Shown piece by piece: positions 2,401 to 32,600 of a stretch of DNA of 32,860 bases; the stretch's first letter is position 1, and each line of letters starts with the position of its first letter. Below the pieces are notes generated by a model that worked only from the letters and a program-made list of their open reading frames with translations, did not search any database and was not told where the DNA came from. The translations under genes were made by a program, and so were the position numbers. The stretch comes from Candidatus Latescibacterota bacterium (GTDB taxonomy: Bacteria > Latescibacterota > UBA2968 > UBA8231), in assembly GCA_021295675.1 (NCBI GenBank), contig JAGWBY010000116.1, positions 1-32,860 of the forward strand. The letters run 5' to 3'.

Positions 2401-3767
2401 CTACAAGCCATGCAGGACTTTGCCGGGATTCATCAGGTTGTCTGGGTCGAGTGCTTTTTTGATGCGGCGCATGACCTCGACGCCTGGACCGCACTCGGCT
2501 TCAAGTGCGTCGATTTTGCCCAGGCCGATGCCGTGTTCGCCGGTGCAGGTTCCCCCGGCTTGGAGTGCCCACTCGACGATTTGCTCGCCTAGCTTCTGCA
2601 CTTGTGCCAGTTCCTCGGCATTGCCCGGTTCGATGAGACAGACGACGTGGAAGTTGCCGTCGCCGACGTGGCCGAAGAGCGGCGCGGGAAAGTCGAGGTC
2701 GGCCAGCGCGGTTCTCGTCTGGTGAATGCAGCGGGCGAGGGCCGTGATCGGTACGCAGACATCGGTTACATAGCCGACTGAGCCGGGGCGGAGCGCGCGC
2801 GAGGCGTAATAGGCATCGTAGCGCGCTTGCCACAAGCGGTCGCGCTCACCCTCGGCCGTGGCCCAGCGGAAGGGGCCGCCGCCCCGCCGGGCTACGTACT
2901 CGCCAGCGGTTTCAGCTTGTTCGACGACTCCCTTTTCCGAGCCGTGGAATTCAAAAAAGAGCGTTGGGGCCACTTCGTAATCGAGGCCGGCGTATTGGTT
3001 GCAGGCCCGCATTTGTACTTCGTCGAGCAATTCGAGCCGCGCGACGGGGATTCCCGCGCTCAAGACATCGATGGCCGCGGCGACAGCCGTGTCGAGGTCG
3101 GCGAAGGGGCAGACGGCTGCGGAGATGGCTGCTGGCAGCTTGGCTAGGCGCAGGGTTACTTCGGTGATAAGGGCCAGCGTGCCTTCGGTGCCGACGAGCA
3201 GGGCGGTCAGGTCGTAGCCCGCCGAGGATTTGCGCGCCCGCCCGCCCGCTTCGACGACGGTGCCGTCGGCAAAGACGGCCTTGAGGCCCAAGACATTGTC
3301 GCGCATGGTGCCATAGCCAACTGCCGCGCTACCAGAAGCGCGGGTGGCGGCCATGCCGCCCAAGGAGGCGTCGGCACCGGGATCGACTGGGAAGTGCAGG
3401 CCGGTATCTTGTGCCCGGAGGTGTTCGTTGAGTTGTTGGCGGGTGACGCCAGCTTCGACCGTGGCGTCCATGTCGGCGGCGCTGACGCGGAGGATGCGGT
3501 TCATGCGCGAGAGATCGACGCACAGGCCGCGCCTTCGACGGCCGTGCCGGTGCCATAGGGTATGATCGGCACTTGGTGCGCGGTGCAGATCCGAGCGATC
3601 TGGGCTACTTCTTCGACGCTTGCGGGGAAGGCTACGGCCTGCGGCGGTTGCGGCGCGTGGTACGAGGCGTCGGCAGCGTGGGCGCGGCGCACCTCAGAGG
3701 TTTCATTCAGGCGCGGGCCAAGGAGAGCGGCAAGCGCCGACAGGGCTTGGGGGTCTATGGGAATCAT
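2401..3767 (-). CDS. FAD-linked oxidase, D-lactate dehydrogenase/GlcD type, interrupted by a frameshift
   Basis: Two overlapping frames encode one protein. Codons 3767-3520 give the N-terminus ending in IIPYGTGTAVEG, and the frame ending at 2401 resumes at LCVDLSRMNRIL and contains PGADASLGG, YGTMRDNVLG, GTEGTLALITEV, GHVGDGNFH, TGEHGIG and NLMNPGKVL. These are the FAD-binding (PCMH-type) and FAD-oxidase C-terminal motifs of D-lactate dehydrogenase/glycolate oxidase GlcD. The two frames meet at about 3520-3530, where only two bases remain between Gly of VEG and Gly of GLC; family members normally have about seven residues there, so some 19-22 nt seem lost. ATG 3767 is preferred over an upstream TTG. 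As written the gene is inactive: either a pseudogene or an assembly error. Confidence 0.8.
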
Positions 3768-3854
3768 GGGCGGTTCACTGTGCCCCAAACATAAATGCTT
3801 GGGATTGTCCTATCAACAAATGCCGGCCTCCTACGGGTACCCGGGTAGTTGCGT

Positions 3855-4853
3855 CTAGCTCTCCACGTCGCGCCCATAGACCGTGCGAATTACGTCCTCG
3901 ATGTCGGGCTCCTGGACGGACACGTCGCGCACCGGGTAGCGGGCCGACAGCTCCGAGATGAGTGCCGACGCAGACACCTGACTCCTCGCAAAGCGAATGC
4001 GGACGACACGGTCTCGCCGTTCAAGGATCTCTGCGTGGGCGTGGGCAAAGCCAGCCAGCGGCTTTCCGGTGCCGGGATCGCACTCGACGATCAGATAGCG
4101 GTGCGGGGTGATCGAGTCGATGAGCGCCGCTAGAGGACCATCTTCGATGATGCGTCCTTGGTTGATGATGATGAGTCGCTCGCAGAGTTCCTCCACATCG
4201 TCTAGGTCGTGCGTGGTGAGCAGCACGGTGGTGCGCCGGCGCTGGTTAATGTCTCGGATGAAGGCCCGAATCGCCGCTTTTACCTCGATGTCCATGCCTA
4301 TCGTAGGCTCGTCGAGAAACAGGATATCCGGCTCGTGCAGCATGGCACCGGCCAATTCCCCGCGCATGCGTTGCCCCAGGGACATCTGTCGCACCGGTGT
4401 GTCGAGGAGGTCGCCGATGCCGAGGACCTCACAGAGTTCAGCGAGGCTCCGTTCGAAGTCGTCGTCGGCAATGCGGTAGATCCGCTTGAACAGCTCAAAG
4501 GACTCGCCTAGGCGAAGGTCCCAGTTTAGCTGGCTGCGCTGACCGAACACGGCGCCGATGCGCTGGACGACCGCCCGCCGCTGCTTCTGGGGCGAAAGGC
4601 CGACGACGGTGACACGCCCGGACGTGGGATAGAGGATGCCGGATAGCATCTTGATAGTCGTCGACTTCCCCGCGCCATTGGGGCCGATGAACCCGACCAG
4701 TTCGCCTGGCTCAATCGCAAAGCTCACGTCGCGCACCGCGTGCACTTCACGTCGGTCGGGCCGGAACAGGCCCTTCACCGCACCGGCCAGCCCTTTTTGC
4801 TTCCGGGTCACGCGGAAGGTCTTGCAAACCCTCTCTAACTCTATATGTGCCAC
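3855..4853 (-). CDS. ABC-2 exporter ATP-binding protein (COG4586 type)
   Basis: A 332-residue ABC ATPase with Walker A GPNGAGKST (57-65), a Q-loop region GAVFGQRSQL (about 100-109), signature MSLGQ (157-161), Walker B ILFLDEP (177-183) and the switch histidine in TTHD (H215). The FGQRSQL Q-loop and MSLGQRMR signature are typical of the ATPase that works with paired ABC-2 permeases of the COG4587/COG3694 type. The open frame extends far upstream, but that part is a shadow of the permease. The start is GTG 4853, which shares one base with the permease stop (TAGTG). It ends the five-gene operon. The transported substrate is unknown; by family an export role is expected. Confidence 0.88.
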   Translation of the reverse strand: MAHIELERVCKTFRVTRKQKGLAGAVKGLFRPDRREVHAVRDVSFAIEPGELVGFIGPNGAGKSTTIKMLSGILYPTSGRVTVVGLSPQKQRRAVVQRIGAVFGQRSQLNWDLRLGESFELFKRIYRIADDDFERSLAELCEVLGIGDLLDTPVRQMSLGQRMRGELAGAMLHEPDILFLDEPTIGMDIEVKAAIRAFIRDINQRRRTTVLLTTHDLDDVEELCERLIIINQGRIIEDGPLAALIDSITPHRYLIVECDPGTGKPLAGFAHAHAEILERRDRVVRIRFARSQVSASALISELSARYPVRDVSVQEPDIEDVIRTVYGRDVES

Positions 4854-5647
4854 TAGGATCCCGCGCTTTCGTAGCGGCGAAGGCCGGCGGCAAAGACAGC
4901 CAGCGCCAGCGCGAGCATGGCAATACCCACGACAGGGGTCCACAGGGCCACATCGAGGGGCAGAGAGGTGTTCGCGCTCTGGCCGAGGAAGATGAAGCCG
5001 AGGGGCAGCACAAAGGTCAGCAGCGCCTGCAGAGGCCACGGATACACGGTCAGCGGGTAGAACGTGCCGCGCGCCATCAGTTCCATGCTGGCGTCCACGA
5101 GGGGCTGGCTGCGCATGGTCCAGAACGCGATGGAGCTGATGAGGGTGAGGTAGGACCAATAGATCAGGGTCCCGCCGGCAATGACGAGGAGCACCTCGGC
5201 GACGTGCAGCGGCGTCCAGACAAAGCCAGACAGCCGGGCCCCGTAGAGGAAGTAGCCCGTGCCGATGCCCAGATGCACGAGGCCGACCACATTGATTCGG
5301 TGGCAGGAGAAGTGGAAGGTGACCTCCAGGGGTCTGAGAAGCATCAAGTCGAACTCACCGCGCGTGACAAAGCGATCGATCAGCCGCGACTGAAACGACA
5401 GGATGGACATGACGCCACGGCTCATCAGGCTCAGCCCATATAGGAAAGCGAGCTGGGAGAAGGTCCATCCCGATAGCGGCTGGAACCGATCGACTAGCAC
5501 CTTCAGGGCGACGCCAATCCAGACGTAGTTGAAGCCCAAGCCAAGGCAGATGCTCAGCAGCGAAAACGGATACTCCAACGCCCGCTGCGCCGACAGGCGG
5601 CCGTACAGGGCTGCAACGGACAAGTGATGACGCACGTCGGCGATCAT
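4853..5647 (-). CDS. ABC-2 family permease (first partner)
   Basis: A 264-residue integral membrane protein with about six hydrophobic segments and the family pattern of a long cytoplasmic N-terminus followed by FLYGLSLMSRG and DRFVTRGEFDLMLLRPL. The RGEFDLMLLRP motif also appears, as RAGEIALDLIRPV, in the neighbouring permease, so the two are paralogous halves of one channel. It belongs to the ABC-2 membrane family (Pfam ABC2_membrane_6 by recollection). It sits 7 bp after the other permease and overlaps the ATPase start by one base, which means tight co-expression. Confidence 0.85.
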   Translation of the reverse strand: MIADVRHHLSVAALYGRLSAQRALEYPFSLLSICLGLGFNYVWIGVALKVLVDRFQPLSGWTFSQLAFLYGLSLMSRGVMSILSFQSRLIDRFVTRGEFDLMLLRPLEVTFHFSCHRINVVGLVHLGIGTGYFLYGARLSGFVWTPLHVAEVLLVIAGGTLIYWSYLTLISSIAFWTMRSQPLVDASMELMARGTFYPLTVYPWPLQALLTFVLPLGFIFLGQSANTSLPLDVALWTPVVGIAMLALALAVFAAGLRRYESAGS

Positions 5648-5654
5648 GGGCTAC

Positions 5655-6428
5655 CTATCCTCCTTGCACGAAGACCCGCCGCTGGGCGCGCGTCCAGACG
5701 AGACCTACGAGCAGGGCGAAGACCACGACCCAGAGAGCCTGTACGGAGAGGAGGTGGACGACCTCTGTGGCAGAGACGCGGCCGATGTAGATCTCCAGCG
5801 GCACCTGGAACATGTACTGGAAGGGCAGCCACCGCGATGCATCGGCGATGAGGTCGGGGAACAGCCACATTGGTACCAATCGTCCCGACAGGGCAAAGAC
5901 GAGGCTGTTTTTCACTGTGCTCACATCCCATAAGTCAGTGACCCAAAAGCCCGTCATGCCCACTAGGGTACTCAGCAGCCATAGCAGCAGGAAGCTCAGC
6001 GCACAGCTCGGCAGAAACAGCAACCCCGCTCCCACTCCCGCTGGCAGCGGAGGAGCCACAAGCAGGGGCAGGGCGAACTGTGTGACGGCCGCCAGTGAAC
6101 GCCCCACATCTTCGGTCATCCAGTACCAGACGAGGTTCACCGGCCGGATTAGGTCGAGCGCGATCTCACCTGCGCGGATCTTGGCGAAGAGCTCGTTGTC
6201 GATGCTGACAGTGAAGCATGCATTCATCAGCACGGCGACGACGGCGTAGGTGACCATCTGCGCCTCGGTAACACCGGCGACTTGGTCGATCCCGCGATAC
6301 GCGGTGCGCCAGAGGAAGACGGAGCCAAGGAGAAAAAACAAATTCCGCCCAATGGAGGACAAATACTCAAAGCGGTAGGCCAGCGCGTTGAGCAGTTGGA
6401 GCTTTAGCAGGTAGGTGTACAGGCGCAT
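5655..6428 (-). CDS. ABC-2 family permease (second partner)
   Basis: A 257-residue membrane protein with six predicted helices. Near residue 80 it carries FAKIRAGEIALDLIRPV, the counterpart of the RGEFDLMLLRP motif in the next gene, and a conserved GFWVTDLWDV segment mid-protein. Together with the 4853-5647 product it should form a heterodimeric ABC-2 exporter energised by the 3855-4853 ATPase. The gene starts 5 bp downstream of the duplicated protease-like gene, so all are in one transcription unit. Substrate not predictable from sequence. Confidence 0.85.
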   Translation of the reverse strand: MRLYTYLLKLQLLNALAYRFEYLSSIGRNLFFLLGSVFLWRTAYRGIDQVAGVTEAQMVTYAVVAVLMNACFTVSIDNELFAKIRAGEIALDLIRPVNLVWYWMTEDVGRSLAAVTQFALPLLVAPPLPAGVGAGLLFLPSCALSFLLLWLLSTLVGMTGFWVTDLWDVSTVKNSLVFALSGRLVPMWLFPDLIADASRWLPFQYMFQVPLEIYIGRVSATEVVHLLSVQALWVVVFALLVGLVWTRAQRRVFVQGG

Positions 6429-6433
6429 GACGG

Positions 6434-9400
6434 CTAGCGGCCAGGATTAAGGCGGGGCTCTGTTGTGCTTCGTTCCCTGAGCGAGGAGACGACGGCAAAC
6501 ACGACGGGAACGAGGCCGAAGAGGATCATCAGGATGCCGTTGATCTTCCATACGTGGGCATCGAATTCGAGGTACCGAATGCCCACGAACAGGATGGAAC
6601 TCCAGCCCAATACGACGTAAAAGAGCAGGTTGAAGCGGATATACTTCAGGAAGAGGAAAGCCGAGATTAGCCAGAATGGACTGCTCAGCGCGAGGAGTAC
6701 GCCTGCGTGGTAGAAATCTTGGGCTGGCGAGACGACGGATCGGAAGATGAGAACGACGAAGACGCCGAGGATCATCAGGTTTGTCCTGCGCAGGATTCGC
6801 CACCAGACAAAGAGAAGGCTGAGGATCGCAATGGGGCCTATGAGCATACCGCTGAATTCGTCGACGAGTTCACCGAGCGCGGGCAGATAGGTGTTGACGC
6901 TGGCGGGCACACCGCCGCCTGCGAAAAGGTAGTCCGTGAGATAGGTAAGATGTACGTGAGTGGAGAGAACGCCGGTGCCTCTTCTGATACCGGAATAGCA
7001 CGCCACCAGAAAGACGACCTGCCACCACAGTGCCGCGCTGCCCGCCTTCAGGCGGAGCACATCGATCCAGTCGGAGATGTGCATCTCTCCGGGACGCTCC
7101 ACGCGGTATAGCGTATCTCCGAGGGCGCAGACCAACAGGGTGAGGATGGCCGTAGCAACGAGGCCCATAACGACACCGACAAGCTCGCCAAGGAGGAAGG
7201 CACCCATAACCTCAGTGGTGTCATAACCCTGGTAGAATGTGGGTAGTTCGTTGAGATCCTCGAGTAGGGAACACAGGCCAAAGAGGATGCCGATGCAGAT
7301 GGGCAATCGCCACTCGACCAGCCCGTTCCGGTAGGCGCGTAGTAGGTAAATGACGGCTAGGACGAGGGTGACAATGACAGCGATGGTGGGGAGAGTGGAG
7401 ACAATGGTGCTCTTTGCAGTCTTCTCTCCCAGTTTGCGCAGAAATTCCTCGGGTGCCTTGTAGGTCTTGTACGCACGGCCGATCCGGTCGCCCTGGACAG
7501 AAGCGACGATGCGGAACTCGCCCTCTTCCACTTTGACGTCCATGCGTTCCCACACAAAGCTGTGGTCCATCCGGTTCTCGCGCTTGAAAGACCGTGCTTC
7601 GAGACGCTTGTAGAGCGTCGTATCGGCTACATCCCGGTTCAGGTGTTGGCGCAGGAAGGCCTCGGCCACTTGCTGCGCTGCTTCGATGGTGAGCTCTACA
7701 CCCTCTTGGCCCTCGGGCACGGCATGCGAGATGTAGGAGAGGTCGCCGTGGCCGTCGACGCTAATGGTGAGTTCCTCTTTTTCGAGAGGCTTGAACCATC
7801 GCACACTCCAGCGCCACGAGCCCGTGTGCTCCGCCGCGAGCGTGTCCGCCCGCGCTATATCGACTTTTCGCAGCAGGTGTGTAAAGTGGTTGGAACCGAG
7901 ACTGCTCGAGAATGAGGTGGTGCGACGATAGCCTTCGAGGTCGAGTCCGAGCTGTCCCCGAATCCCTTCGGCAATCTCGATGGCCTGTCCACGGGTGGGG
8001 ACCTTCTCGCGTGCGTATTCAGCGAAATTCCGCGGTTCGTAAATGAAGTATGCGGACCAGCCCAACAGACCGAGGATGCCAAAGACGAGGAGACCCTTGC
8101 CGGAAATGAGGTGGTCAGAGGGCCTCTTGCGTTCGATCGGAGGTTCGGGCGGCTCCGCGGGAAGGGCAGATGGCGGGGGTGCGGCCTTTGGTGCCTCCGG
8201 AGTGGGTTCAAGGGGCTCGTCCTCGTAGCGGCCGCGGACGGCGCTCCAGATGGCGGGCAGGGCCGGGATGGAGATGATGGCGACAGCGAGGATGCCCGAG
8301 ATTTTGAAATAGAGGCTGTCGGACAGCACCATAGGATAGACGCCGAGAAAGCAGTTGTACACGTAGTGGGAGATGATGGTCGCCCAGACACCGAAGCGCA
8401 GGAAGACCATGCCGAGGAGGATTCCCACGATGGTCAGTTCCAAGCCTCGGATGTAGATCGGTTCCTGCGGATAGTCGGCGTGGAGGAAGGCCCACACCGC
8501 GGCGGAAACGAAAAGGGCCAACCAGCTTTTCTTAAACCAGCGAAGGAGGAGGGAGATGGCCACTAGTCGAAAGAGGAACTCCTCCATGGTGGCCGCCACG
8601 AGACCCGTCAGCAGGGGATATATCCAAGGCAGGTACGTGCTGTAGGCATTGCTGTATTGGGTCATGGCGGCAGGCGACCAGACCCCGAGGTAGTCGTTGC
8701 CCAGAATGTAAAAGAGGGTGACGTAACCCAAGTGGGCAAATGCCAGGCCATAACCGACAAGGGTAACGCGTGCAAAGCTCGCCGACCGCCAGCGCCGCAG
8801 GGAAACCCGCTCTAAGGGATTGCTCCAGTCTCTTACGTCCTGCGCGGCGGCTCCGCCTGCTGTGCCGCACACGGCGATGATGAGGGCCATGACAGCGGCG
8901 CCGAGGAGACCAGTGAAGATGAAGTTGAGAATGAAGGAGACGTAGGACTGCATGGTGTCGTATCCGAACAGACTGAGCGGATAGCCATTGATGGACCCGA
9001 GCAAGGAGGCGGCTCCCACGAGGATGCCGATGGATACGGCGACGCGCCATGTGAGTGTGCGCTGGCGATACTTGCGCACTAGGACGACGATCATGGCAAT
9101 GGCCAGTGCAAAGGCAAAGCCTCTGGCGACCTTGGTGAGCAGACCGGCACGAGCGCGGGTCTCGCGGTAGTCGCGCGAGAAGGTTTCGGGGACCTTGAGG
9201 TATTCGGCGAAGCTGCCTATCCGGTCTCCTTGGACCGTGACGCGCAGGCGGTAGTGTCCATCATCGCCGACGACGAAGTCCCGCTTGCGGTAGGTGAAGG
9301 TGTGGTCCCTCCGCTTGGGGCGGTCGATGCTGGAGGCCTCGATGGGTTCGTAGGCGTCGAGTGAAAAACCCTGAACATCGGCGAGGAAGGCCTCGGCGAT

Positions 9401-9841
9401 GTGCCGGGCATCCTCTTCTGAGAGGCTGGTACCTTCGTCGGACTCGAGGATGCTGTGGGTAAACCCCACGATGCGCCCGCCGGGATCAATGCGGACGCGG
9501 AGTTCTTCCTTCTGCAGCGGTTTGAAATAGCGGATGTTCCAATACCACACCGAGACCCACTCCCGCACGAGGCGGTTGGCCTCGGCCAAGCCCAAAGTGC
9601 GTTCGAGGAAAATCTGGGGCAGGCTGGCATGGGAGAAGACTTGAGCGCTCTCGTATTCGGTGAGGTCGTAGCCGAGGCGGTGGAGATATGCTTCGGCAGC
9701 TTGATAAGCCTGTTCGCGGTCTACGCGAAAGTTAAGTGAGGCAACGGGAAAGGCCCGGTCGAAGAACTGGACATAACAGGCGAGACCGAGAACGCCTGAG
9801 ATCAGGAAGGAAAGGATCCATACAGAATCGCGTCGGGTCAT
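6434..9841 (-). CDS. Duplicated CPBP (CAAX-type) intramembrane protease-like protein
   Basis: A 1135-residue membrane protein composed of two tandem copies (about 7-540 and 585-1120) joined by a Pro/Glu-rich linker (541-575). Each copy has an N-terminal helix, a soluble extracytoplasmic region and a block of membrane helices. The copies share FKPLQKEEL/FKPLEKEEL, VQGDRIG, KVPETF/KAPEEF and NTYLP/STYLP. Copy 1 has the CPBP active-site set: E420-E421 and R425 (EEFLFR), H454 (FLHADYP) and H492 (SHYVYN). Copy 2 has no EExxxR or His counterparts at the aligned place (about 988-1010). ATG 9841 is preferred over 9853 because GGGGGA lies just before it; it overlaps the upstream stop as ATGA. CPBP proteins cleave in the membrane or act in bacteriocin processing/immunity. 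The role with the ABC exporter is unknown. Confidence 0.85.
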   Translation of the reverse strand: MTRRDSVWILSFLISGVLGLACYVQFFDRAFPVASLNFRVDREQAYQAAEAYLHRLGYDLTEYESAQVFSHASLPQIFLERTLGLAEANRLVREWVSVWYWNIRYFKPLQKEELRVRIDPGGRIVGFTHSILESDEGTSLSEEDARHIAEAFLADVQGFSLDAYEPIEASSIDRPKRRDHTFTYRKRDFVVGDDGHYRLRVTVQGDRIGSFAEYLKVPETFSRDYRETRARAGLLTKVARGFAFALAIAMIVVLVRKYRQRTLTWRVAVSIGILVGAASLLGSINGYPLSLFGYDTMQSYVSFILNFIFTGLLGAAVMALIIAVCGTAGGAAAQDVRDWSNPLERVSLRRWRSASFARVTLVGYGLAFAHLGYVTLFYILGNDYLGVWSPAAMTQYSNAYSTYLPWIYPLLTGLVAATMEEFLFRLVAISLLLRWFKKSWLALFVSAAVWAFLHADYPQEPIYIRGLELTIVGILLGMVFLRFGVWATIISHYVYNCFLGVYPMVLSDSLYFKISGILAVAIISIPALPAIWSAVRGRYEDEPLEPTPEAPKAAPPPSALPAEPPEPPIERKRPSDHLISGKGLLVFGILGLLGWSAYFIYEPRNFAEYAREKVPTRGQAIEIAEGIRGQLGLDLEGYRRTTSFSSSLGSNHFTHLLRKVDIARADTLAAEHTGSWRWSVRWFKPLEKEELTISVDGHGDLSYISHAVPEGQEGVELTIEAAQQVAEAFLRQHLNRDVADTTLYKRLEARSFKRENRMDHSFVWERMDVKVEEGEFRIVASVQGDRIGRAYKTYKAPEEFLRKLGEKTAKSTIVSTLPTIAVIVTLVLAVIYLLRAYRNGLVEWRLPICIGILFGLCSLLEDLNELPTFYQGYDTTEVMGAFLLGELVGVVMGLVATAILTLLVCALGDTLYRVERPGEMHISDWIDVLRLKAGSAALWWQVVFLVACYSGIRRGTGVLSTHVHLTYLTDYLFAGGGVPASVNTYLPALGELVDEFSGMLIGPIAILSLLFVWWRILRRTNLMILGVFVVLIFRSVVSPAQDFYHAGVLLALSSPFWLISAFLFLKYIRFNLLFYVVLGWSSILFVGIRYLEFDAHVWKINGILMILFGLVPVVFAVVSSLRERSTTEPRLNPGR

Positions 9842-12868: not shown

Positions 12869-15733
12869 TCAGAAGGCGAACAGGTCCTCCAAGCCCAGTT
12901 CGACGACCTCGCCCTGCCCTGCTAGAGCCTCTAAGTCCATTTTGCTCTTGTCGCCGGTGATCGAAATCAGCTTGGGGCGTCCTTGGACGTGTTGGCGGTA
13001 GAATGCGAGCACTTTGTCGAGGCCGCTGGCTTGGATCTGCTCAAAGCGCCATGCGCGCGGGTCGCCGGTCAGCCCCTTGCGCTCCCAGCCGCGTACGGTC
13101 CCCAGGATCGAGCGGAAGCCGAGCCGTTCAGTGCGGTACTTGTTGAGCACTGAAAGCTGGGCCGCGGCAAAGCGCTCGGGCGAGGAGGGGATGTCGTCGA
13201 GCAGGCCGGCGAAGGCCGCAACCGCTTCGGGCGTCTTGTCAGCTTGTGTGCCCATGCCGCCGACCATGTAGTTGTAGTCGGCTTTGTCGCGGCCGTTGAA
13301 GTAGAGGGCACCCACTGAGTAGGCCAAGGCGCGCGCTTCGCGGATCTCTTGGAATACGATGCCAGCCATGCCACCGTAGAAGTAGTCGTTGAACAGCTCG
13401 ACTGCTGGCTCAAGCGTCGCTTGGTAGGGCACGTCCACGTATTCGATCCTCACTAAAGCTTGGGCCATTTCCTTGTCGAAAAAGTAGATCTGAGTTTTCT
13501 CGGGCTGAGTAAACTCCAAGACCTGATAGGGCGGCGGCTCGACTGGAGACTCAGGCAGCGAATAGTGCTGGTCGAGGATCGCCTGTACGTCCTCGATAGA
13601 TTGCGACCCGGTGTAGCTGAGGGTCTGGCGATAGGAGAGCAAGCCGCTGAGTAGGTCGATAAGCTCTTCGCGTCCCAGAGCGCGGACCGACTCGTTGGAC
13701 AATACCCGGCGGTAGTACGCCATATCGCCCAAGCGGTGATAGCGGTAGAGAGCTTCGTGAATGGTGCGGTGATCCTTGAGCGCGTCGTCGCGCCGAGCGA
13801 TGATGATGGACTGAAGCTCGGCGAGCGTGGCGTCATCGGTGGTCGGGCCGTGCATCAGTTCAGACAATAAGGCCAGCGACGCAGCGAAATTTTCATCGAG
13901 GCCCGCAATGGAAATCGTGGTCTCTTGGTCACTGACGTTCATCCTAAAGTCGGTGCCCAACTTGTACCATTCCTTTTTCAGCTCTTCGGAGGTAAAGCGC
14001 GGAGTACCCGACTTGTCGAGCAGTTCGCGGGCCACGGGCAGGCGCTTTTCAGTTAGGGAGCCGAGGTCGATCGCGATAGAAAATTCGAACAGGTCGTTGA
14101 GCGGGTTGCGGGCGTAGTAGAGCTTGCTGCTGCCCGCGAGTTCTCGGATGGTAAAGTCGCGCTCGGGCACGAGGTAGGCCGGCTCGACCTCCGCAAAGGG
14201 CATAGCCATGACCTCGGCGAAAAAGGCCGATTGGCGCGAGGCGTCGATGTCGATTTTGTCGATGGGCGGCTTGGCGATCTCGGGGTAACCGGCAACGTAC
14301 GCGCCGTTGAAGTACTTATTGGCGGCTTCGACGATGTCGTGCTTCTCGATCTCGGCCATGCGGTCTAAGGCGCGCACCGCGTGGCTCCATTCCTCAAACC
14401 CGAGATATGCATCGCGCATGGAGCTGACCCGAGAACTGTTGTTTTCCTGCCCCTGCTTTACGCTCTTCTTGAAATCGGTGACAATGGCCGGGATGATCCA
14501 ATCCTCGAATTGCCCATCTTTGATCAGGTCGATCTGCTCCAAGAGCAGGGCCTCGACTTCCTCAAGGGTTTGGTCCTGTTTGGGGATGCCCCACAAGTAC
14601 TGGGCGCCGTAGTCGTTGAGCAGATAAGGGTACGAGCCGGCTTCGCGCACCTTCTGCTGCTGATTGAGGTTGAGGTTGATCAGCCCGGCCGTGGCGTTGT
14701 CGAGGATCATATCGAGGATTTGCAGCGTCTCGGCGTCCTCGTGCGTGCGCTCGGCGGTGCGAAAGGCCAAAAGGACGTATTCCTCACCGGGATAATTAAC
14801 CTCGGTCCGTTCCACTTCGCTGATTGCAGGCTCTTTGTAGTCGGGAAATGAGGGCAGTTCCTTGCGCTCCCAGAGCGAAAATTCGCGGTCGATGAGTTGG
14901 ATGGTCTCGTCGATGTCGATGTCGCCGGAGATGAAGATCGCCATGTTGTTGGCCACGTAGTACGTATTGTAGAACTCGTACATGCGCTCTAGCGAGGGAT
15001 TTTTCAGGTGATCTACTGTGCCTAGCGTGGTGACGCGATAGGGATGGACCTTGTAGAATTGCTCCTGCACGGCTTTGTGGATGACGCGGCCCTTGTTGTC
15101 GAGGGAGCGGTTTTTTTCCTCATAGACGGTTTCCAACTCGGTTTGGAAGAGGCGAAAGACCGGCTCGTGAAAGCGCTCGGCCTCGACCTTGGCCCATTGC
15201 GCTAGGCGATTGGCCGGCAGTTCCACTTTATAGACGGTTTCCTCGACCCAGGTATGGGCGTTGAGGCCGCGCTCGCCCATTGCGGTGTAGAGGCGGTCGA
15301 GTTCATTGGGAATGGCGTAGGCCGCGGCGAGTTGGTTTTCAGCGTTGATCTCGGCGTAGATTGCGGCCCTTTTTTCCGGGTCGGTTTCACTGAAATGCTG
15401 CTCGTAGAGCGCCTTGATGCGGTCGAGGTGGACCTGCTCCTTTTCGTAGTCGAGGGTGCCGATTTTTTGGCTGCCCTTGAAGAGCATGTGCTCCAGATAA
15501 TGGGCAATGCCGGTGGCGTCTTGGGGGTCGTGCTTGGAACCAGCGCGGATGGCGATTTCGGCGTAGAAGCGCGGCTCTTCCCGATTTTCGGTCAGATAGA
15601 CCGTCAGGCCGTTGTCCAATTGGTAGATATGGGCCGCCATGGGGTCTTTGGGGTCCGGGCCGTGGAGTAGTTTGTACTCGGCGGGAAGGGCCTCGGCCAA
15701 GGCGAGAAAGAAAAGCGCGTACAGCAGGGGCAT
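12869..15733 (-). CDS. M16-family zinc metallopeptidase (pitrilysin/insulinase-like), secreted
   Basis: A 954-residue full-length M16 protein. A short hydrophobic signal sequence (1-15, ending AEALPA) is followed by the inverted zinc site H78-Y-L-E81-H82 (HYLEHMLFKGS) and the downstream glutamate region TELETVYEEKNR (about 198-208). The second half is the non-catalytic M16 repeat. Such enzymes degrade peptides in the periplasm or at the envelope. ATG 15733 has AAAGGA eight bases upstream and is preferred to an upstream TTG. At about 14290 the sequence goes from NGAYVA straight to GYPEIAKPP; relatives as I recall have about nine more residues there, so a 27-nt in-frame loss is possible. It is divergent from comF. 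Confidence 0.9.
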   Translation of the reverse strand: MPLLYALFFLALAEALPAEYKLLHGPDPKDPMAAHIYQLDNGLTVYLTENREEPRFYAEIAIRAGSKHDPQDATGIAHYLEHMLFKGSQKIGTLDYEKEQVHLDRIKALYEQHFSETDPEKRAAIYAEINAENQLAAAYAIPNELDRLYTAMGERGLNAHTWVEETVYKVELPANRLAQWAKVEAERFHEPVFRLFQTELETVYEEKNRSLDNKGRVIHKAVQEQFYKVHPYRVTTLGTVDHLKNPSLERMYEFYNTYYVANNMAIFISGDIDIDETIQLIDREFSLWERKELPSFPDYKEPAISEVERTEVNYPGEEYVLLAFRTAERTHEDAETLQILDMILDNATAGLINLNLNQQQKVREAGSYPYLLNDYGAQYLWGIPKQDQTLEEVEALLLEQIDLIKDGQFEDWIIPAIVTDFKKSVKQGQENNSSRVSSMRDAYLGFEEWSHAVRALDRMAEIEKHDIVEAANKYFNGAYVAGYPEIAKPPIDKIDIDASRQSAFFAEVMAMPFAEVEPAYLVPERDFTIRELAGSSKLYYARNPLNDLFEFSIAIDLGSLTEKRLPVARELLDKSGTPRFTSEELKKEWYKLGTDFRMNVSDQETTISIAGLDENFAASLALLSELMHGPTTDDATLAELQSIIIARRDDALKDHRTIHEALYRYHRLGDMAYYRRVLSNESVRALGREELIDLLSGLLSYRQTLSYTGSQSIEDVQAILDQHYSLPESPVEPPPYQVLEFTQPEKTQIYFFDKEMAQALVRIEYVDVPYQATLEPAVELFNDYFYGGMAGIVFQEIREARALAYSVGALYFNGRDKADYNYMVGGMGTQADKTPEAVAAFAGLLDDIPSSPERFAAAQLSVLNKYRTERLGFRSILGTVRGWERKGLTGDPRAWRFEQIQASGLDKVLAFYRQHVQGRPKLISITGDKSKMDLEALAGQGEVVELGLEDLFAF

Positions 15734-19684: not shown

Positions 19685-19759
19685 AATTGCGAATTGCGAA
19701 TTGCGAATTGCGAATTGGAGGAGGTAATTCCTAATTCCTAATTCTTAATTCCTAATTCC
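19685..19759 (+). repeat. Two heptamer tandem arrays forming an imperfect hairpin
   Basis: 19685-19719 holds five copies of AATTGCG (the last altered) and 19725-19759 holds five copies of TAATTCC (one altered). Each array is 35 bp. The arrays can pair with each other in RNA (GCGAATT against AATTCCT, with one G-U and one mismatch per unit), leaving the purine-rich GGAGGAGG in the loop. They lie between tpiA and secG. Confidence 0.85.
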
Positions 19760-19769: not shown

Positions 19770-20140
19770 ATGTTTGAAATTCGCTGATTTGCGTGCTCCT
19801 AGTGGTGACCGTGCTCTTGCAGGCGGGCAAAGGGGGCGGCTTGGCTGGATCGATCGGCGGTGGCTTAGCCTCTTCCTCCGTGTTGGGCGGTCGCACTGCA
19901 GCCACGTTTCTGACCAAGGCCACGACCGTTTTGGCCACAGCTTTTATGCTTAGCTGTTTGGTGCAGTCGGTGGCCTTTCAGACAGCCGAGACCACTCCGA
20001 CGACGGCAACGCAACGGACGATGGCCGAGGAACAGGCACCAGCGGTGCCCGCCATCCCGGAAGCAGAGCACCTGCTGGGCGAGCAGGAAGAGGCCGCTGA
20101 GACCTCGACTGCTGAGGAGACGCCGGCCGAGGCTCAGTAG
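19770..20140 (+). CDS. secG: Protein-export subunit SecG, interrupted by a frameshift near the start
   Basis: SecG, the small accessory subunit of the SecYEG translocon. The body is unmistakable: LLVVTVLLQAGKGGGLAG, a Gly/Ser-rich loop, the second membrane helix (about 45-65) and an acidic C-terminal tail rich in Ala, Glu and Pro. A normal start exists at 19770 (ATG, then FEI), but its frame hits TGA at once, while the conserved frame begins around CTGATTTGC (19784). The conserved frame has no ATG upstream; only GTG 19793 remains, which would remove most of the first helix. About 16-22 nt appear to be lost between 19781 and 19784. It follows pgk-tpiA and precedes tRNA-Leu. Confidence 0.82.
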
Positions 20141-20158: not shown

Positions 20159-20240
20159 GCCGAAGTGGTGAAATTGGTAGACACGCTGTCTTGAGGGGGC
20201 AGTGCCTTCGGGCGTCGGGGTTCGAATCCCCGCTTCTGCT
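20159..20240 (+). tRNA. tRNA-Leu (anticodon GAG) with an abnormal 3' end
   Basis: A class II tRNA: acceptor GCCGAAG, D-arm typical of Leu (TGGTGAAATTGGTAGACA), anticodon stem CTGTC/GGCAG with loop TTGAGGG (anticodon GAG), an extra arm (TGCCTTCGGGCG) and T-arm CGGGG-TTCGAAT-CCCCG. The 3' acceptor strand reads CTTCTGC then T, instead of the expected CTTCGGC and A73, with no encoded CCA (the other tRNA here encodes CCA). The gene may be truncated after CTTC. Confidence 0.88.
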
Positions 20241-20267
20241 TATACAGTCCCTTTTTTTGTGCGGGCG

Positions 20268-20712: not shown

Positions 20713-20817
20713 TCACCCGAGGCGATGCCCTTCCCTAGGCAGTCTGGCCCGTTGTTCGGCCGCATTCTCGTAAGTTCTAAAGATTTCTACTAGCGCATAC
20801 AGGTAGCGGAGGTGAGC

Positions 20818-24936: not shown

Positions 24937-25230
24937 TTAGTAGTTGGAGTAGTGCTCCGCTAAGACTTCCTCGCCGTGGCGCTGGACCAGCACTTCTTTG
25001 AATTTGGCAATGGAGCCGCCAGCGCGTAGGTGCGCCAACATCTCGCTCTTGGACATGACCATCATCGTGCCATTTTTGTAGTCGGGGAAGCGACAAAAGC
25101 TGAACTCAACCGGCTCGCCAGTGACGCAGCAGGTATCTTCCATTTCCAACTCGATCTGCGTGCCGGGATCAAACGGAAATTCAGCGTTGTCGTCGTCGCC
25201 GTTGGATTGGGCTTTCTTCCGCCTTGCCAT
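24937..25230 (-). CDS. Small acidic protein of unknown function
   Basis: A 97-residue protein: basic start (MARRKKAQ), acidic linker (GDDDN), then a compact region with CCVTGEPVEFSFCRFPDY (three Cys), a Met-rich strand (TMMVMS) and a C-terminal helix ending AEHYSNY. I recognise no family. AAGGAG lies seven bases before the ATG, a strong initiation site. It follows map by 58 bp on the same strand, so they probably form an operon. The frame is open much further upstream, but that extension is a shadow of map. Confidence 0.65.
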   Translation of the reverse strand: MARRKKAQSNGDDDNAEFPFDPGTQIELEMEDTCCVTGEPVEFSFCRFPDYKNGTMMVMSKSEMLAHLRAGGSIAKFKEVLVQRHGEEVLAEHYSNY

Positions 25231-25288
25231 GCTGTTCTCCTTGTGAGATGAACTTAAAAAGATAAGAAAATGCCGCCGCTGAGCAAGT

Positions 25289-26050
25289 TCAGTACGGCAG
25301 ATCGGCAAAGCGCGATAGCACATCCGGCCCGTCGTGGGTGACGGCCACGGTGTGTTCGTATTGGGCCGAGAGCTTGCCGTCGGTGGTGACGGCCGTCCAG
25401 TCGTCGTCGAGTACGTGCGTGTCGTGCGCGCCTTCGTTGACCATCGGCTCAATGGTAAAGACCATGCCGTTTTGCAGGCGGCGACCCGTGCCAGCCTTGC
25501 CGTAGTGGAGCAATTGGGGTTCCTCGTGGAAGTTGCGGCCAATGCCGTGACCGCAATACGTGCGCACGATGGAAAAGCCGCGTGCTTCGACATAGCTTTG
25601 GATCGCGTGGCCAATGTCGCCGAGGCGTCGCCCAGGCGCGCATAAGGCCAACCCTTCCTCCAAGCTCTGGCGCGTGGCGTCGAGCAAGCGCTGGGCCTTG
25701 GAGGTCACGCAGCCGACTTTCATGGTGACGTTCATGTCGCCGTGAAAGCCATCTTTTTTAACGGCAATGTCAACGGCGAGGATGTCCCCTTCTTGCAGGA
25801 CGCGGTCTCCGGGAATGCCGTGGACGACTTCGTCATTGACCGAGACGCAGATGCTGCGGGGAAAGCCGCGATAGCCCAAGGCACTGGCGGTCGCCCCTTG
25901 GCTGCGAATGTAGCGGTCGGCTATTTGGTCGAGATGGAGGGTGGTGACTCCAGGTGCGAGGGCCTCTTCGACGCGGAGCATGGCTTCGGCGGCGATGCGG
26001 CAACTAGCGCGGATGCGGTCGATTTCCAAGGGTGATTTGAGATGTACCAT
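25289..26050 (-). CDS. map: Methionine aminopeptidase, type I
   Basis: A 253-residue enzyme that removes N-terminal Met from new proteins. All five metal ligands of the pita-bread fold are visible: Asp in ILAVDIAV, Asp in FHGDMN, His in CGHGIGRNFHEEP, Glu in TIEPMV and Glu in QYEHTVAV. Substrate His in EVVHGIPGD is also present. ATG 26050 gives the usual start (MVHLKSPLEI); ATG 26071 and an upstream TTG are alternatives, and none has a clear Shine-Dalgarno site. Length matches type I enzymes without the N-terminal SEC-C extension. Confidence 0.95.
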   Translation of the reverse strand: MVHLKSPLEIDRIRASCRIAAEAMLRVEEALAPGVTTLHLDQIADRYIRSQGATASALGYRGFPRSICVSVNDEVVHGIPGDRVLQEGDILAVDIAVKKDGFHGDMNVTMKVGCVTSKAQRLLDATRQSLEEGLALCAPGRRLGDIGHAIQSYVEARGFSIVRTYCGHGIGRNFHEEPQLLHYGKAGTGRRLQNGMVFTIEPMVNEGAHDTHVLDDDWTAVTTDGKLSAQYEHTVAVTHDGPDVLSRFADLPY

Positions 26051-26100: not shown

Positions 26101-26143
26101 TAGCGACTATGAAAACGCAACCAGCTAGCGACCATGAAAACGC
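26101..26143 (+). repeat. Direct repeat duplicating a start-codon region
   Basis: TAGCGACTATGAAAACGC (26101-26118) and TAGCGACCATGAAAACGC (26126-26143) match at 17 of 18 positions with a 25-bp period. Each includes ATGAAAACG. Only the second ATG is in frame with the glycosyltransferase. Confidence 0.8.
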
Positions 26144-27156
26144 CTCGCGTATCTATACTACTGCCCGTGTTCAATGCCGCCGCCACGCTGGCGGAAACTT
26201 TGCAGAGCATCCAAGTACAAAGCTGCGAAGATTTTGAGGTCGTAGCCATAGATGACGGCTCGGAGGACGACAGCGGGGACATGCTGTCGGAATGGAGTCG
26301 CCGCGATCGCCGCTTCAGGGTGTTGCTGTCCGACCACCGAGGCATTGTCGAAGCTCCCAACCGAGGCTTGGCCTTGTGTCGGGGCGCGTACGTGGCGCGC
26401 ATGGACGCCGACGACCAGATGCATCCCGAGCGTCTAGAAAAGCAACTCGCGTGGTTGGAAGGAGATCCTAGCTTAAGTGTCGTGAGTTGTTTGGTGGAGA
26501 TCTTTCCGCGCGCGGAAACCGGGGAGGGGATGTTGGTGTACGAGGCTTGGTTGAACGGCTTGGTGGATAGCGCGGCGATAGAAAGAGAGTTTTTCGTCGA
26601 GAGTCCCATCGCCAATCCGTCGGCCATGATGCGCCGCGAGGAGTTGGTGGACTTGGGGGGGTACCAAGATCGGGGATGGCCGGAAGACTACGATTTGTGG
26701 TTGCGCTATCGGGCGGCGGGCCGGCGCTTTGCCAAGGTGCCAGAGGTCTTGCACTACTGGCGCGAACACACCGACCGGGCGACCCATACTAATAGCCGCT
26801 ACTCAGTGGAGAATTTTCTCCGCGCCAAAGCGCACTATCTTTGCGCCGGGCCGCTACAAGAGCGGGGTGGGCTAGCCGTCTGGGGCGCGGGCAAGACCGG
26901 TCGTCGGCTCGCCAAGCACTTGGAACGCGAAGGCCGCGCTCCCGATGTATTTGTCGATATTGCGCCCAAGAAAATTGGCGGCACCTTGCGGCGCAAGCCC
27001 GTGATCGGGCCGGAGGATTTACCGATGTGGTGGACGCGCCACGAGCGACCCATGCTGTTGGCGGCCGTGGCGTCGCGGGGGGCGCGGGCGCTGATTCGAG
27101 AGGCGTTGGGTGAATTGGGGATGGTAGAGGGGAATGATTTTTTATGCGTGGCTTAA
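26134..27156 (+). CDS. Glycosyltransferase family 2 with extra C-terminal domain
   Basis: A 340-residue protein. Residues 1-235 form a GT-A glycosyltransferase 2: ILLPVFNAAATL, AIDDGSEDDS, the metal-binding MDADD (90-94), NPSAMMRREEL and the acceptor-side GWPEDYDLWLRY. Residues about 240-340 (LAVWGAGKTGRRLAKHL, FVDIAPKKIGG, KPVIGPEDLP) look like a small Rossmann-type nucleotide-sugar domain of the kind attached to some transferases and C-methyltransferases. It transfers a sugar onto an unknown acceptor. ATG 26134 is selected; a duplicated copy of the start region lies 25 bp upstream, out of frame. No strong ribosome site is seen. It ends 22 bp before the isomerase gene. Confidence 0.85.
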   Translation: MKTPRVSILLPVFNAAATLAETLQSIQVQSCEDFEVVAIDDGSEDDSGDMLSEWSRRDRRFRVLLSDHRGIVEAPNRGLALCRGAYVARMDADDQMHPERLEKQLAWLEGDPSLSVVSCLVEIFPRAETGEGMLVYEAWLNGLVDSAAIEREFFVESPIANPSAMMRREELVDLGGYQDRGWPEDYDLWLRYRAAGRRFAKVPEVLHYWREHTDRATHTNSRYSVENFLRAKAHYLCAGPLQERGGLAVWGAGKTGRRLAKHLEREGRAPDVFVDIAPKKIGGTLRRKPVIGPEDLPMWWTRHERPMLLAAVASRGARALIREALGELGMVEGNDFLCVA

Positions 27157-27178
27157 CAAAAACGAGAAAGGAAACAAT

Positions 27179-27966
27179 ATGACGGTGCAATACGCGCTCA
27201 ACACATCGACTATTCGCCCGGCGTCGCTGATGGAGAAAATTCGCATCACCGGACAGACTGGCTATCAGGGCATTGAGCTGTGGAACGATGACTTGACCGC
27301 GCATGAGCAGCAGGGCGGCTCGCTCGCGGACGTGCGGCAGGCACTGGCCGACTACGGATTGGCAGTGCCGACGGTCATTGCACTCCACGGCTGGTTGGGG
27401 GCTGAGGGCGCGGCGCGGGCACAGGCATTGGAGGAGGTGCGACGGCGGATGGCGCAGGCAGTAGCGGTGGGGGCCGAGTTTATCGTCGCCAGCCCGCCGC
27501 GAGATCTCTGCGACCTGAGCCGAGGCGGAGCCGATTACCGCGAATTGCTGGAAATCGGCAAGGAAATCGGCGTGCGGCCGGCGATGGAGTACCTAGGATT
27601 TGTGCAAAGCGTGTACACCATTGACCAAGCTTGGCAGATTGCCACCGACGCCGACCATCCAGATGCCAGTTTGATTATGGATCCGTTCCACATATTACGC
27701 GGCGGCGGTCCCATTGCGAGCATCGCCAAGGTACCTGGCGACAAGGTCGCGGTCTGGCACTGGAACGATGCCCCGGGCGACAAGCCCTTTGCCGAACAAA
27801 GCGACGCCGACCGGGTGAATTGCGCGAAATCGAGCGGCTGGCGCAAGCGCAGGGATACGAGGGGTTTGTGTCGCTGGAGCTATTCAATCCGGGGCTATGG
27901 GAGCAAGACCCGGCAGATGTTGCCCGGATTGGTATAGAGAAGATGCGGACGTATTTCGCCGATTAA
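27179..27966 (+). CDS. Sugar phosphate isomerase/epimerase (xylose isomerase-like TIM barrel), frameshifted near the 3' end
   Basis: Two frames encode one protein of about 265-275 residues. The first has YALNTSTIRP, GYQGIELWNDD, ASPPRDLCDL, AMEYLGFV (metal Glu), MDPFHILRGGG (metal Asp/His) and VWHWNDAPGDKPFAEQSDADR; the second resumes at GELREIERLAQAQGYEG and ends FVSLELFNPGLW ... EKMRTYFAD (last metal Glu in SLELFN). At about 27818 only two bases separate the Asp of DADR from the Gly of GELRE; relatives have a PGDG-containing stretch there, so about 31-34 nt appear lost. AAAGGA lies before ATG 27179. Family enzymes isomerise or dehydrate sugars and inositols; the substrate is unknown. Confidence 0.83.
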
Positions 27967-28011: not shown

Positions 28012-29616
28012 TTAGTGCTGCTGCGCTGATTCGACCCCACTGGTCAAGTTTCTGAGTCCCTCCTCGATGGCCCTGCAATCCTGGGGCAGCAAAAAATCTA
28101 CCATCCGGAAGAGGAATACCATCCCTTTCTGCTCTGCAAAGTTCCTGCGTTGAGTCGCATCGAATTGGGAAATATCCTCTATTTGTCGGCCCATGAGTTC
28201 GGCCACGTAGCGACGCAATACTGCCGGTGGTTCTCGGTAGGGCATATTGCGCAGGAAGAGTATCAGGTCATTGCGGTAGAAGACGCGGGCCCACAGCGAA
28301 TAACCGAGTTGGCGGGCATAGGCTTCATAGTTTTTCAGCCTACCCGTATCGCCCACTCCCCAGTTTGCACCGACAGAACTCTGAACCAGATCCTCGACCA
28401 TGGAGCGGGCAATTAGGTAATGCCCATACACAGTTGGATGCAAGTACTCAGCGATCAATTCGTTCCCGACAATGCCGTGCGGCGAGTTGGCGGCAAAGAC
28501 TTTTTCCACATCGCTCAACAGGATCTGGTCCTCGGCTGTGCCGGCCAGCTTGCGGATAATCTGATTGAATATCGCGGGGGCGCGAAAGGGCAGCCTGTCC
28601 ATGTCGCGAGCGTAGACAAAAGCCTTGTGGGCCTTGCTGTACTCCCCGCGCCTATAGTGTAATCGGCCCAATTCAAAGTGGATGCCAGCGCAATAGGGGG
28701 CCTCATCGAGCGCTTCCTCGCAGAGGTCTATGGCTTCCTGCAGTCGGCCTTGGCGTACTAGGCCGTCCAGCTCTTGCGATAAATCCCCGCCGTCGCAGTC
28801 CGAGCGCAGCGGATAGAAGTCCTTTAGATTGGCAACCAGAGTCGAGATCAGCACCGGAGTCCCGTGCTGACGGGCCTGCAGCAGTATTTCCCCTAGATTA
28901 TCCCGGTAGTTTTCCGCAGTGACCCGGTGTTCCTCATCCAGCAGACCAATTTCTCTGCCGACCAGATGGAGTCCGAACTTCTCCTCTGCGGGACTCCACC
29001 ACTTTTGCAGACGGTAAATCGCCTCGCTGAGAAAGTAGTAGATTCTAGAGCGCTGCAACTCCATGTAGAGCCGGATCCAGGTCCGATTGTTGCCGAATTT
29101 GCGGAAGGGAGTGGTGACCCCGTAAGGGCCGACAAATTCGTTGTGCCCCGCGTAGAGGATGATTAAGTCCGGCTCATACCCGACGACTTCGGCCGCGAAG
29201 TCCAGCAAACAGAAGGTGTTGATGGCGGTCATGCCGCAGTTGATGACCTCGAAGCGTTTGTCTGGATAGACATCGGCCAGCATTTCTGCGAGAAAGTGCG
29301 GAAAAGCCGTATTGGGCGGGTTGGGAAAACCAAGCAGCGTAGAGGCCCCTAGGACAAAAATGCGCACCGCGTCAGGTGGTTTTTTTTGTAGGAAACTCGG
29401 ATTGTACGGTACGGGACGCCGGTACTGCTGCTGAAAGAAACGGTGGCCGACGTGCGGGTTGACTTCGTATACGACCTCCCCGTCCCGGTGGAAAGCCAGG
29501 AAAAGCCGACTGGAAGGGCCGGCATCCGCTAGGTAAAGGGTAACTTCCAGCAGTACTAGAGCCCCCATCCCCACCAGAACCGCCAGAAGATTCAGGAGGA
29601 GCGATTTCTTCAGCAT
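28012..29616 (-). CDS. Membrane-anchored SGNH/GDSL hydrolase with helical (TPR-like) insert
   Basis: A 534-residue protein with an N-terminal membrane helix (6-30) and an extracytoplasmic SGNH fold: block I VLGASTLLGFP (Ser92), block II INCGMTAINTF (Gly128), block III YAGHNEF (Asn159) and a last block E390-Y-L-H393-P-x3-GH. The usual DxxH is ExxH here. Between blocks III and V lies a helical region (about 280-345, QEAIDLCEEALDEAP and EYSKAHKAFVYA) resembling TPR units. Such hydrolases often deacetylate or esterify surface polysaccharides. It starts 25 bp after the large discoidin-like gene, which suggests joint action at the cell surface. Confidence 0.8.
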   Translation of the reverse strand: MLKKSLLLNLLAVLVGMGALVLLEVTLYLADAGPSSRLFLAFHRDGEVVYEVNPHVGHRFFQQQYRRPVPYNPSFLQKKPPDAVRIFVLGASTLLGFPNPPNTAFPHFLAEMLADVYPDKRFEVINCGMTAINTFCLLDFAAEVVGYEPDLIILYAGHNEFVGPYGVTTPFRKFGNNRTWIRLYMELQRSRIYYFLSEAIYRLQKWWSPAEEKFGLHLVGREIGLLDEEHRVTAENYRDNLGEILLQARQHGTPVLISTLVANLKDFYPLRSDCDGGDLSQELDGLVRQGRLQEAIDLCEEALDEAPYCAGIHFELGRLHYRRGEYSKAHKAFVYARDMDRLPFRAPAIFNQIIRKLAGTAEDQILLSDVEKVFAANSPHGIVGNELIAEYLHPTVYGHYLIARSMVEDLVQSSVGANWGVGDTGRLKNYEAYARQLGYSLWARVFYRNDLILFLRNMPYREPPAVLRRYVAELMGRQIEDISQFDATQRRNFAEQKGMVFLFRMVDFLLPQDCRAIEEGLRNLTSGVESAQQH

Positions 29617-29641
29617 TGATGAGCCAACGCCACCCAGCTAC

Positions 29642-32600
29642 CTAATACGCCACAGCAATCACCCGATAGTCCACCGTGTGAGTAGCCTCCACCGCGTCCG
29701 CATCTACCCCTATCTTACATAGATAGAGACCGGGCGGAACTACCTGCTCTGCCTCGTCCCAGCCGTTCCACACCACGCTCTGTTCGCCAAACCCCATCTG
29801 GACTTTGTGCCAGACTCGACGGCCGCTGAGGTCGAAAATCTCGACCCGTACTGCGCGATTTGTATTGAGGTTGCCTAGGGAAAAACGGATCTGCAGCTGG
29901 TCGTTGACGCCGTCGTCGTTGGGGGTAAAGGGATTGGGAGAAATTTCCACATCCCGCACCACCTGGGCGCTGAGCGGGACGGCGATACTCATCGTGTTTC
30001 CCTCTCTTAGAAAGGTCGCATTCCCGGCATCTACCTGCTGCCACATTGCCGGCCCACCAGCGTCGCGGATTGATGCGTCAATCGTGCTTCCATTCAATAT
30101 CACCTTGGCCTTAAAACGGACCCGGACCAGTTCCCCTGCAGCTACAATCGATCCCTTCTCGTCCGTTGGCAATGCGTTGTACGCGGTCTGGGACAGCGGT
30201 TGCCCTGCCCGATCAAAGGGAAATTCTCCACCCTTGCCGATCAACTTGCGAAAATAGAGAGTCTCCCCTTTCAGAGAATCCTCCAGACTCTTGTACTGAA
30301 AATTGGTGACTTCTTTCTGGACAAGCGTGCCATCTGGGTTCTCACCGACAATCTGGAAGTAGACCGTGCTCCCCCGCTGCTCTAAGGGCAGGCTCAAATA
30401 AGTGAGCTGGTTCAGCGGGCGACTATCCTCATCCACGGGGATCTCTTCCCCCTCTTCCAAGATGAGCCGATTGTAGAACCGCGATTTCTCCGATTGGGGC
30501 AATAGACCGACCTTGTGCGGCAGACGCATCAGCAGTTTGGATCCGGCTGCATCGGCATCCCCGGCGGCGATTCCTCCCTGGAAGACTTTGAGCGTATCGC
30601 CGGAGACGGGATCGATCAGGGACTGAAAGCGCTCTCCGGCGTTCTCGAACCAGTAGTCCTTCTCTCCCGCGACCAGACGCCACCCGAGCTCGGTGAAATT
30701 CTGCCCAGTGCCATTTTGCAAGTCCTCCTCCGACCCTAGGCTCACATCTAGGAGTTCGATCTCCTGAATAGGATCGGCATCAATGAAGATCTCGTCGAAA
30801 CGCCGACTCCCCTGACCATCGGGCTCGCGCTCCACAAAGGTGGGATTGAGGTAGACTTCAAAATCCTGCAGCGTGCCCAGAGATACCTCGTTGGGCCAGA
30901 TTTCGCCGGTTGCGCGGCGGGCCACCGGCGGAAGAAAATGCACCCGTACGGAGCGGACATTAGCGGCCATGTCGGGGGCCCGGGAAGCCATCTTTACCTG
31001 AATTTGCAAAAACCGCCTCGGACTGGGAGAAGTGATGGGATCGCCCGGCTCGATGTATTTCTGACTCCAAGGACTCCATCCACCTCCCGGGATCCTGCTG
31101 GTGACCACAGGGCCCTGGAACTTGGCGGGCAATTTATTGTAGTCCGCTTCGGTCTTGAAGTCGCCGCCGCTGCCGTAGTATTCAGTTCTCTCTATCAAAC
31201 GGTCTCCGGTGCGGGTGCGGATCTCCACATCAACCAGATCGGGATCGGGGATATCGGCTTCCCACTCTATCTTGCCTAGGATGAACGCGCCCGGCAGCTC
31301 GATCATGGGCGAAGTCAGAACAACCTCTGGGGGATACCCCTCGCCAAAGACCTGCACTTCCCTGAACCCGTCCGCGAGGATCCCACTCCCCGCGGCGCGC
31401 TGGAAATCCACCGTGGACCGGGACCACAAGTAGCGCACCCGCATGGGACGCTCCAAGAGTTGTTCGTAATTTACCCGGGTCATGCCTTTCTCGCTCCGGT
31501 CTATTTGCGTCCACTTCAGATTGCCATTGGTGTCTCTGCTTCCATCCGAGACGCGGGTCAAGTACTCATGGCGGCTAGAAATACTTCCCACCCAGCGCAA
31601 TTGATCGATCCAGAAGACGGCTCCCAGATCTACGATGAGTGTGCCTCTGTCCTCAAAGCGAGGGTCTGGTTGCCAGACCTCCTGTCTAAAATGGGTGTCG
31701 TAGATCCCGTCAAATCCCTCTGCCGCTGTCAATGGACCGAGCAGGTCGACACTGCCGCCGCCCTCGATAATGCCCAGAGCGATATTGTTCCCTTGGGCCC
31801 ACACCTCGATATCCGCTAGGCGGGGACGTTCCCGCTGGTAGTAGGCCAGCCGGCTCTGGCGATCGGCGGGAACCTGATCGAAGACCGCTTTGTCCACCTT
31901 GGTCTCTTTGCCAATTGCATTCACAATGAAGTAATCGATGCCTCCCTGGTGCCCCAGAGGCAGATCCATATATTCTCGCTCGGAGACCTCCTTGAACTTG
32001 TCGAATTTGCTGTCCGTGATCTGAATGCGCAGCCGGTGTACTAGCAGGTAATTCCTACTCGGATCGTTTGCAACCAAATTGTCGAACTCGACTACTCGCC
32101 GATTCTCGTTGGGTGTTACCGTGCGCGCGGTCAGGCTCAAAGTGGCGTCCCGCTTTTGCGAAGGCGTGGTGAGGATGCGGAACTGGCGGAAGGGCTCGCC
32201 TACCTCTTCGTCCACAAAGCGCAGCACGATCTTTGAGACCGGCACCACCCGGCCCAACTCCACATCCACGTACCACTTTTCTAGGGAGCGGCTGTTGTAC
32301 TGGATCCGCCGCGTAGGTATCCCGGTCAATGCGACGCTCCTGGCCGGCCGCGTCTTTGGCGAAATAATAAATGGGTCCCTGCTCGCCCGGTGGCAGAGCA
32401 TGGTACTCTTCCTCGCTCACCTCGGTGCTCGGCTCCCAGTAGGTACTCGGATCGCCGTCGAGAATATTGGCGGCCATTCCCGAGTGGTAGGGTGCTTCCC
32501 TAATGCCTCCCTGGTAGAAGTACCAGATCACGGGATCGCCTACCTCTATGCCGTTTTTTGCGTCCGCTTTCAAGTGCAGAATTGGGGCACCGGCTACATA

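Follow-up and report, generated by a model that had tools for sequence, protein, structure and literature searches.

Recurrent losses of about 22 nt across the genes of a Candidatus Latescibacterota contig most likely arose in the making of the record

In the pseudogenes of eroding symbionts, several conserved genes can be interrupted in one genome, as is the case in the stretch of DNA analyzed here; however, the mixture of lesions, the stop codons and the relaxed constraint that characterize such pseudogenes were not observed in the genes compared in this stretch. On the technical side, PacBio CCS drafts are polished in windows of approx. 22 bp, and Flye works through short "bubbles" during polishing, some of which can be skipped; consensus windows dropped in either way would give blunt, frame-blind losses of an approximately fixed, small size. 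Spurious pseudogenes resulting from assembly have also been documented, and the available portion of the study concerned names platform, coverage and assembler as causes (Cooley and Wright 2024, PMC11017572). The link from coverage to frameshift pseudogenes has, in this portion, low confidence in the causal model (37%) and is supported by reassembly and simulation (PMC11017572). The genes analyzed here resemble these spurious pseudogenes in that a single assembly contains the broken copies and close relatives carry intact forms, but they differ in kind, as the same portion of that study deals with RefSeq frameshifts and internal stops and has no characteristic loss of approx. 22 nt.

The window, i.e., the whole stretch of 32,860 nt that was analyzed (contig JAGWBY010000116.1 of assembly GCA_021295675.1), shows an ordinary gene content: an enolase-type gene, a GlcD-like FAD oxidase, an ABC transporter, Gfo/Idh, an M16 peptidase, pfk, pgk, tpi, secG, tRNA-Leu, dnaE, methionine aminopeptidase, an isomerase and a large protein at the end, some of these names being readings of the translations. 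The contig most probably stems from an uncultured member of the Latescibacterota. DnaE shows 88-93% identity to its five nearest aligned relatives. DnaE relatives further off are named by their sources as Candidatus Latescibacteria or Latescibacterota (P0011, P0078, P0093, P0109 and P0118) and as Gemmatimonadetes or Gemmatimonadota (P0085 and P0107). The window also encodes a membrane protein of 1,139 residues (6434-9853), the halves of which look alike by eye and a part of which looks CAAX-protease-like.

Ten sites of loss in the window

The original prediction, made from the sequence and from the spacing usual in each family, held that short stretches were missing from many genes of the window. 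These lengths have now been measured by alignment to relatives. Exact sizing used peptide diagonals against the proteins of close relatives (29 rows chosen from 360 listed proteins, 2 of the 29 for a control gene); all of these close comparisons were made at the level of protein and not of DNA, and, as the diagonals need shared 5-residue words, compensated small slips between words could be hidden. In each of seven genes, every row that spans the junction gave one and the same length. On the reverse strand, the FAD oxidase (pieces 3501-3788 and 2401-3504) lacks 19 nt between flanks at 3531 and 3528 (two of three rows; P0121 starts downstream), the barrel protein, which has no Pfam match (pieces 10625-11401 and 9838-11031), lacks 20 nt between 11045 and 11037 (five of five rows), and the large protein at the end of the window, termed discoidin-type in the original prediction (29642-32858, running off the window), lacks 20 nt between 32313 and 32311 (4/4 rows). 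On the forward strand, losses of 23 nt in pfk, encoding 6-phosphofructokinase (16669-17698; flanks 16917 and 16919; 4/4 rows), and of 22 nt in a gene for a sugar isomerase-type TIM barrel protein (27179-27966; flanks 27817 and 27820; 3/3 rows) were found, together with two losses that preserve the reading frame, i.e., 27 nt in the Gfo/Idh/MocA oxidoreductase (11545-12588; flanks 12207 and 12208; 4/4 rows) and 24 nt in dnaE (20812-24297; flanks 23505 and 23506; 4/4 rows).

The loss in dnaE was also apparent in DnaE alignments, in which eight residues absent from the DnaE of the window are present in all 11 aligned relatives; among 120 other DnaE rows, none shows the gap of the window. A search of genome contigs with DnaE gave no more than 50% identity among the best 80 matches listed, and DnaE in the 145 genomes reached from that search showed no more than 54% identity. 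With the C-terminal part of DnaE as the query, 386 further genomes gave no match at E 1e-45, and the scan of two of eight viral-contig sets found no close DNA.

The M16 peptidase (12869-15739, reverse strand) is 9, 8 and 9 residues shorter after residue 486 than three distant homologs (33-38% identity), i.e., it lacks 24-27 nt in frame at approx. 14281..14296. No other internal gap longer than a single residue is common to more than one homolog, where the row from L166, which is in the wrong frame, and homologs that do not cover the site were left out. Thus, the three genes that had been predicted to be shortened in frame (Gfo/Idh, M16 and dnaE) are all short by measurement. In secG (19770-20140, forward strand; junction 19781..19784), sizing rests on the usual spacing from the start Met to a conserved Gln, which is 50 nt in the window as compared to 66 nt in most of the rows that have a Met within range (12 of 16); the remaining four rows have 54, 63, 69 and 75 nt (27 loci were used as input, of which nine gave rows without Met or not SecG and two gave rows without the motif). 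Approximately 16 nt are therefore missing, or 13 or 19 nt if the spacing is one residue off. The tpi-secG interval contains two heptamer arrays side by side, AATTGCG with 4.7 copies (19685-19717) and TAATTCC with 5 copies (19725-19759).

Among 43 genomes, 12 contain the 5' 27 bases of tRNA-Leu(GAG) (20159-20240, forward strand), at 13 places in total, and the 12 copies that are complete in their locus all have the 3' end CTTCGGCA, whereas the copy of the window has CTTCTGCT. The gene thus breaks near 20237 (junction 20237..20241), in agreement with the predicted loss of its 3' acceptor end, although ARAGORN and Rfam still call this tRNA at full length, which counts against a break. A tRNA-Leu with the same 5' end is located less than 0.5 kb from secG in three genomes (G007, G065 and G122), as it is in the window. 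Overall, all ten sites are supported and nine of them are sized, which confirms that the observation itself is real.

Length, frame and shape of the losses

Taking the M16 loss as 27 nt and the secG loss as 16 nt, the nine sized losses have a mean of 22.0 nt (range 16-27 nt). The range first proposed (16-34 nt) was too wide at its upper end, and the measured lengths are more uniform. The seven exact lengths all fall within 19-27 nt, a spread significantly below the exponential expectation (P ~ 5e-6). Losses occur at a density of one per approx. 3.6 kb. Six of the nine break the frame and three keep it, which is the neutral 2:1 share that had been anticipated for a process blind to reading frame and is here borne out by measured lengths; this share holds even though dnaE, pfk, secG and a tRNA are among the genes affected.

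Junction homology was examined at the seven exactly sized sites. Six of these junctions can be placed within 0-2 nt without mismatch, so that the bases shared at the cut number at most 2 (upper bounds of 1, 1, 0, 2, 0 and 1 nt); random cuts in the window share a similar number (mean 0.74 nt). No direct repeats were found at the ends of the losses at these six junctions, while the barrel junction is blurred by two divergent positions and has at most 6 nt with 2 mismatches. We also searched for a periodic grid among nine positions (the tRNA left out; the M16 and secG positions being approximate) using 3,941 moduli. The best modulus, 150, gave R = 0.81, which is ordinary for so many moduli (null median R of 0.80, 95% point 0.90), and modulus 500 gave R = 0.39; a fixed software grid was rejected on this basis. 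While 150 also corresponds to a frequently used read length, this modulus was not chosen beforehand.

Internal stops were absent from the 4,651 codons compared in eight genes (i.e., the sequences flanking the seven exactly sized losses, and one intact gene), and flank identity across these codons was 88-99%. The intact gene, used as a control (28012..29616, reverse strand), encodes a protein of 534 residues that shows no indel as compared to two relatives, one of which (P0301) carries GDSL-lipase and TPR Pfam domains. When each compared gene was set against its closest relative, the 5-residue-word diagonals did not show any other length change. Further relatives differed by 33 and 3 nt in DnaE and by 3 or 6 nt in other genes; steps of 61 and 42 nt were observed against P0243, and single-base slips were observed against P0126 and P0360, where the sequence of the relative itself is out of frame.

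Further losses may be present in the regions outside the comparison with relatives, namely the enolase-type gene (143-1357), a PIN-like gene (1930-2391), the ABC transporter (3855-6428), the membrane protein described above, the comF-like and TlpA-like genes, a small protein (near 24937-25290), a glycosyltransferase (26134-27156) and intergenic DNA. The Pfam domain of the enolase-type protein is matched end to end, and PGK, TPI and methionine aminopeptidase have end-to-end spans with no such shortfall by family profiles only.

DnaE and PFK in relatives

Among 120 DnaE rows, a clean lone loss in a conserved stretch was found in one, P0062, which lacks 6 residues (18 nt) and is located on a 6.4-kb contig; this loss resembles those of the window. 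In P0005, gaps occur close to the start of DnaE, in a stretch that is out of frame, and the 5-column gaps of P0010, P0104, P0107 and P0110 lie in the variable tail at the C-terminus. None of 109 PFK rows showed an internal gap. Three PFK rows fall short in length: those of P0151 and P0157 start at or beside the Met where the broken copy of the window resumes, and P0162 is partial according to its source. As both the DnaE and the PFK rows were picked by score and length, frame-broken copies are under-represented among them, and these counts bound the rate of such losses only loosely.

DnaE of the window also contains an 11-residue addition (21361-21402), which, among the 11 aligned relatives, is shared only by P0001 and P0005; by eye, this addition resembles the stretch that follows it and may thus have arisen by genuine tandem duplication. 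The C-terminal quarter of DnaE seemingly occurs in two types shuffled among species (e.g., P0001 and P0014 vs. P0002 and P0006), a pattern that, by eye, suggests recombination. A strain chimera, with a switch of the closest relative at the dnaE junction, was also considered; by eye, likeness to the relatives seems to start changing before the junction is reached.

Technical and biological explanations

Two causes had been offered with the original prediction, an artefact and a deletion-prone biological process such as symbiont erosion, and only the former is in line with the blunt, frame-blind losses of narrow length reported here. Judging from the sequence, we consider it very probable that the losses are technical, i.e., that pieces of roughly fixed size (16-27 nt, mean approx. 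22 nt) were dropped in some step on the way to the record, be it consensus calling, polishing, assembly or later handling. The two flanks of each piece would then have been butted together regardless of sequence or reading frame. The roughly fixed size points to software that operates on short windows, some of which it dropped, or to subsequent editing of the record; a dropped consensus micro-window would fit the loss length, which is only a lead. This technical reading is supported by blunt cuts, blindness to frame, narrow lengths, intact forms on other contigs, the rarity of similar losses in conserved columns of the DnaE and PFK relatives and the fact that no other lesion was seen, and the pattern is not that of evolution, as erosion would leave stops and single-base indels, slippage would leave repeats and selection would favor in-frame losses in genes like dnaE or secG. 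On the other hand, we know of no standard assembler fault with just such a loss length, which counts against a technical cause, as do the PFK relatives P0151 and P0157 with their starts at or beside the Met mentioned above, and literature searches, judged by titles and the starts of abstracts, gave nothing on micro-window loss or on losses of such size.

A different technical step is conceivable but unlikely, namely coverage gaps, in which contigs ending for lack of reads would have been linked through read pairs and the intervening N later removed or set to zero, so that the uncovered bases disappeared. The density of one loss per approx. 3.6 kb and the mean of 22 nt are, by our own arithmetic, near the Lander-Waterman values for 100-150-base reads at approx. 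five-fold depth, and the N count in the window is 0. However, coverage gaps predict approximately exponential lengths, with many losses shorter than 15 nt and some longer than 40 nt, which is at odds with the narrow spread of the seven exact lengths; moreover, short duplications would be expected at joins between contigs with an overlap shorter than the k-mer, and none were found in the compared genes.

Real deletions in the living organism, through genome erosion or in a hypermutable strain, appear improbable. The losses are present in the record, and natural in-frame indels do occur in the clade (e.g., the 11-residue DnaE addition shared with P0001 and P0005). Erosion, however, predicts stops, single-base indels and relaxed constraint, as opposed to the stop-free codons and the lack of any other indel against the closest relatives reported above. 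Spontaneous deletions of such size usually occur between short repeats, which six of the seven junctions examined do not have, and hardly dispensable genes (dnaE, secG and a tRNA) are affected as well. We regard it as more improbable still that, in a living Latescibacterota lineage, an active process removes, or has just removed, blunt fragments about two DNA turns long (16-27 bp) from random sites across the chromosome, once per few kb. That the genes are functional as they stand, by recoding, bypassing, trans-splicing or RNA editing, has next to no likelihood, since it has in its favor the conserved flanks in shifted frames and nothing more, while the conserved codons are absent and can be restored by no frame shift or hop, a search of all frames within the window did not recover the missing-peptide motifs of eight genes, three of the losses are in frame and one lies in a tRNA.

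Overall, the losses are thus most likely a product of the making of the record rather than of the living bacterium and do not represent a real biological feature. If this technical signature is general, housekeeping genes in public metagenome records would contain small, invisible losses, with split genes being counted as pseudogenes and in-frame losses being mistaken for genuine short variants; such records would be revealed by scanning conserved columns for isolated, blunt losses of approx. 22 nt. Should the losses prove real after all, they would represent an excision process new to bacteria.
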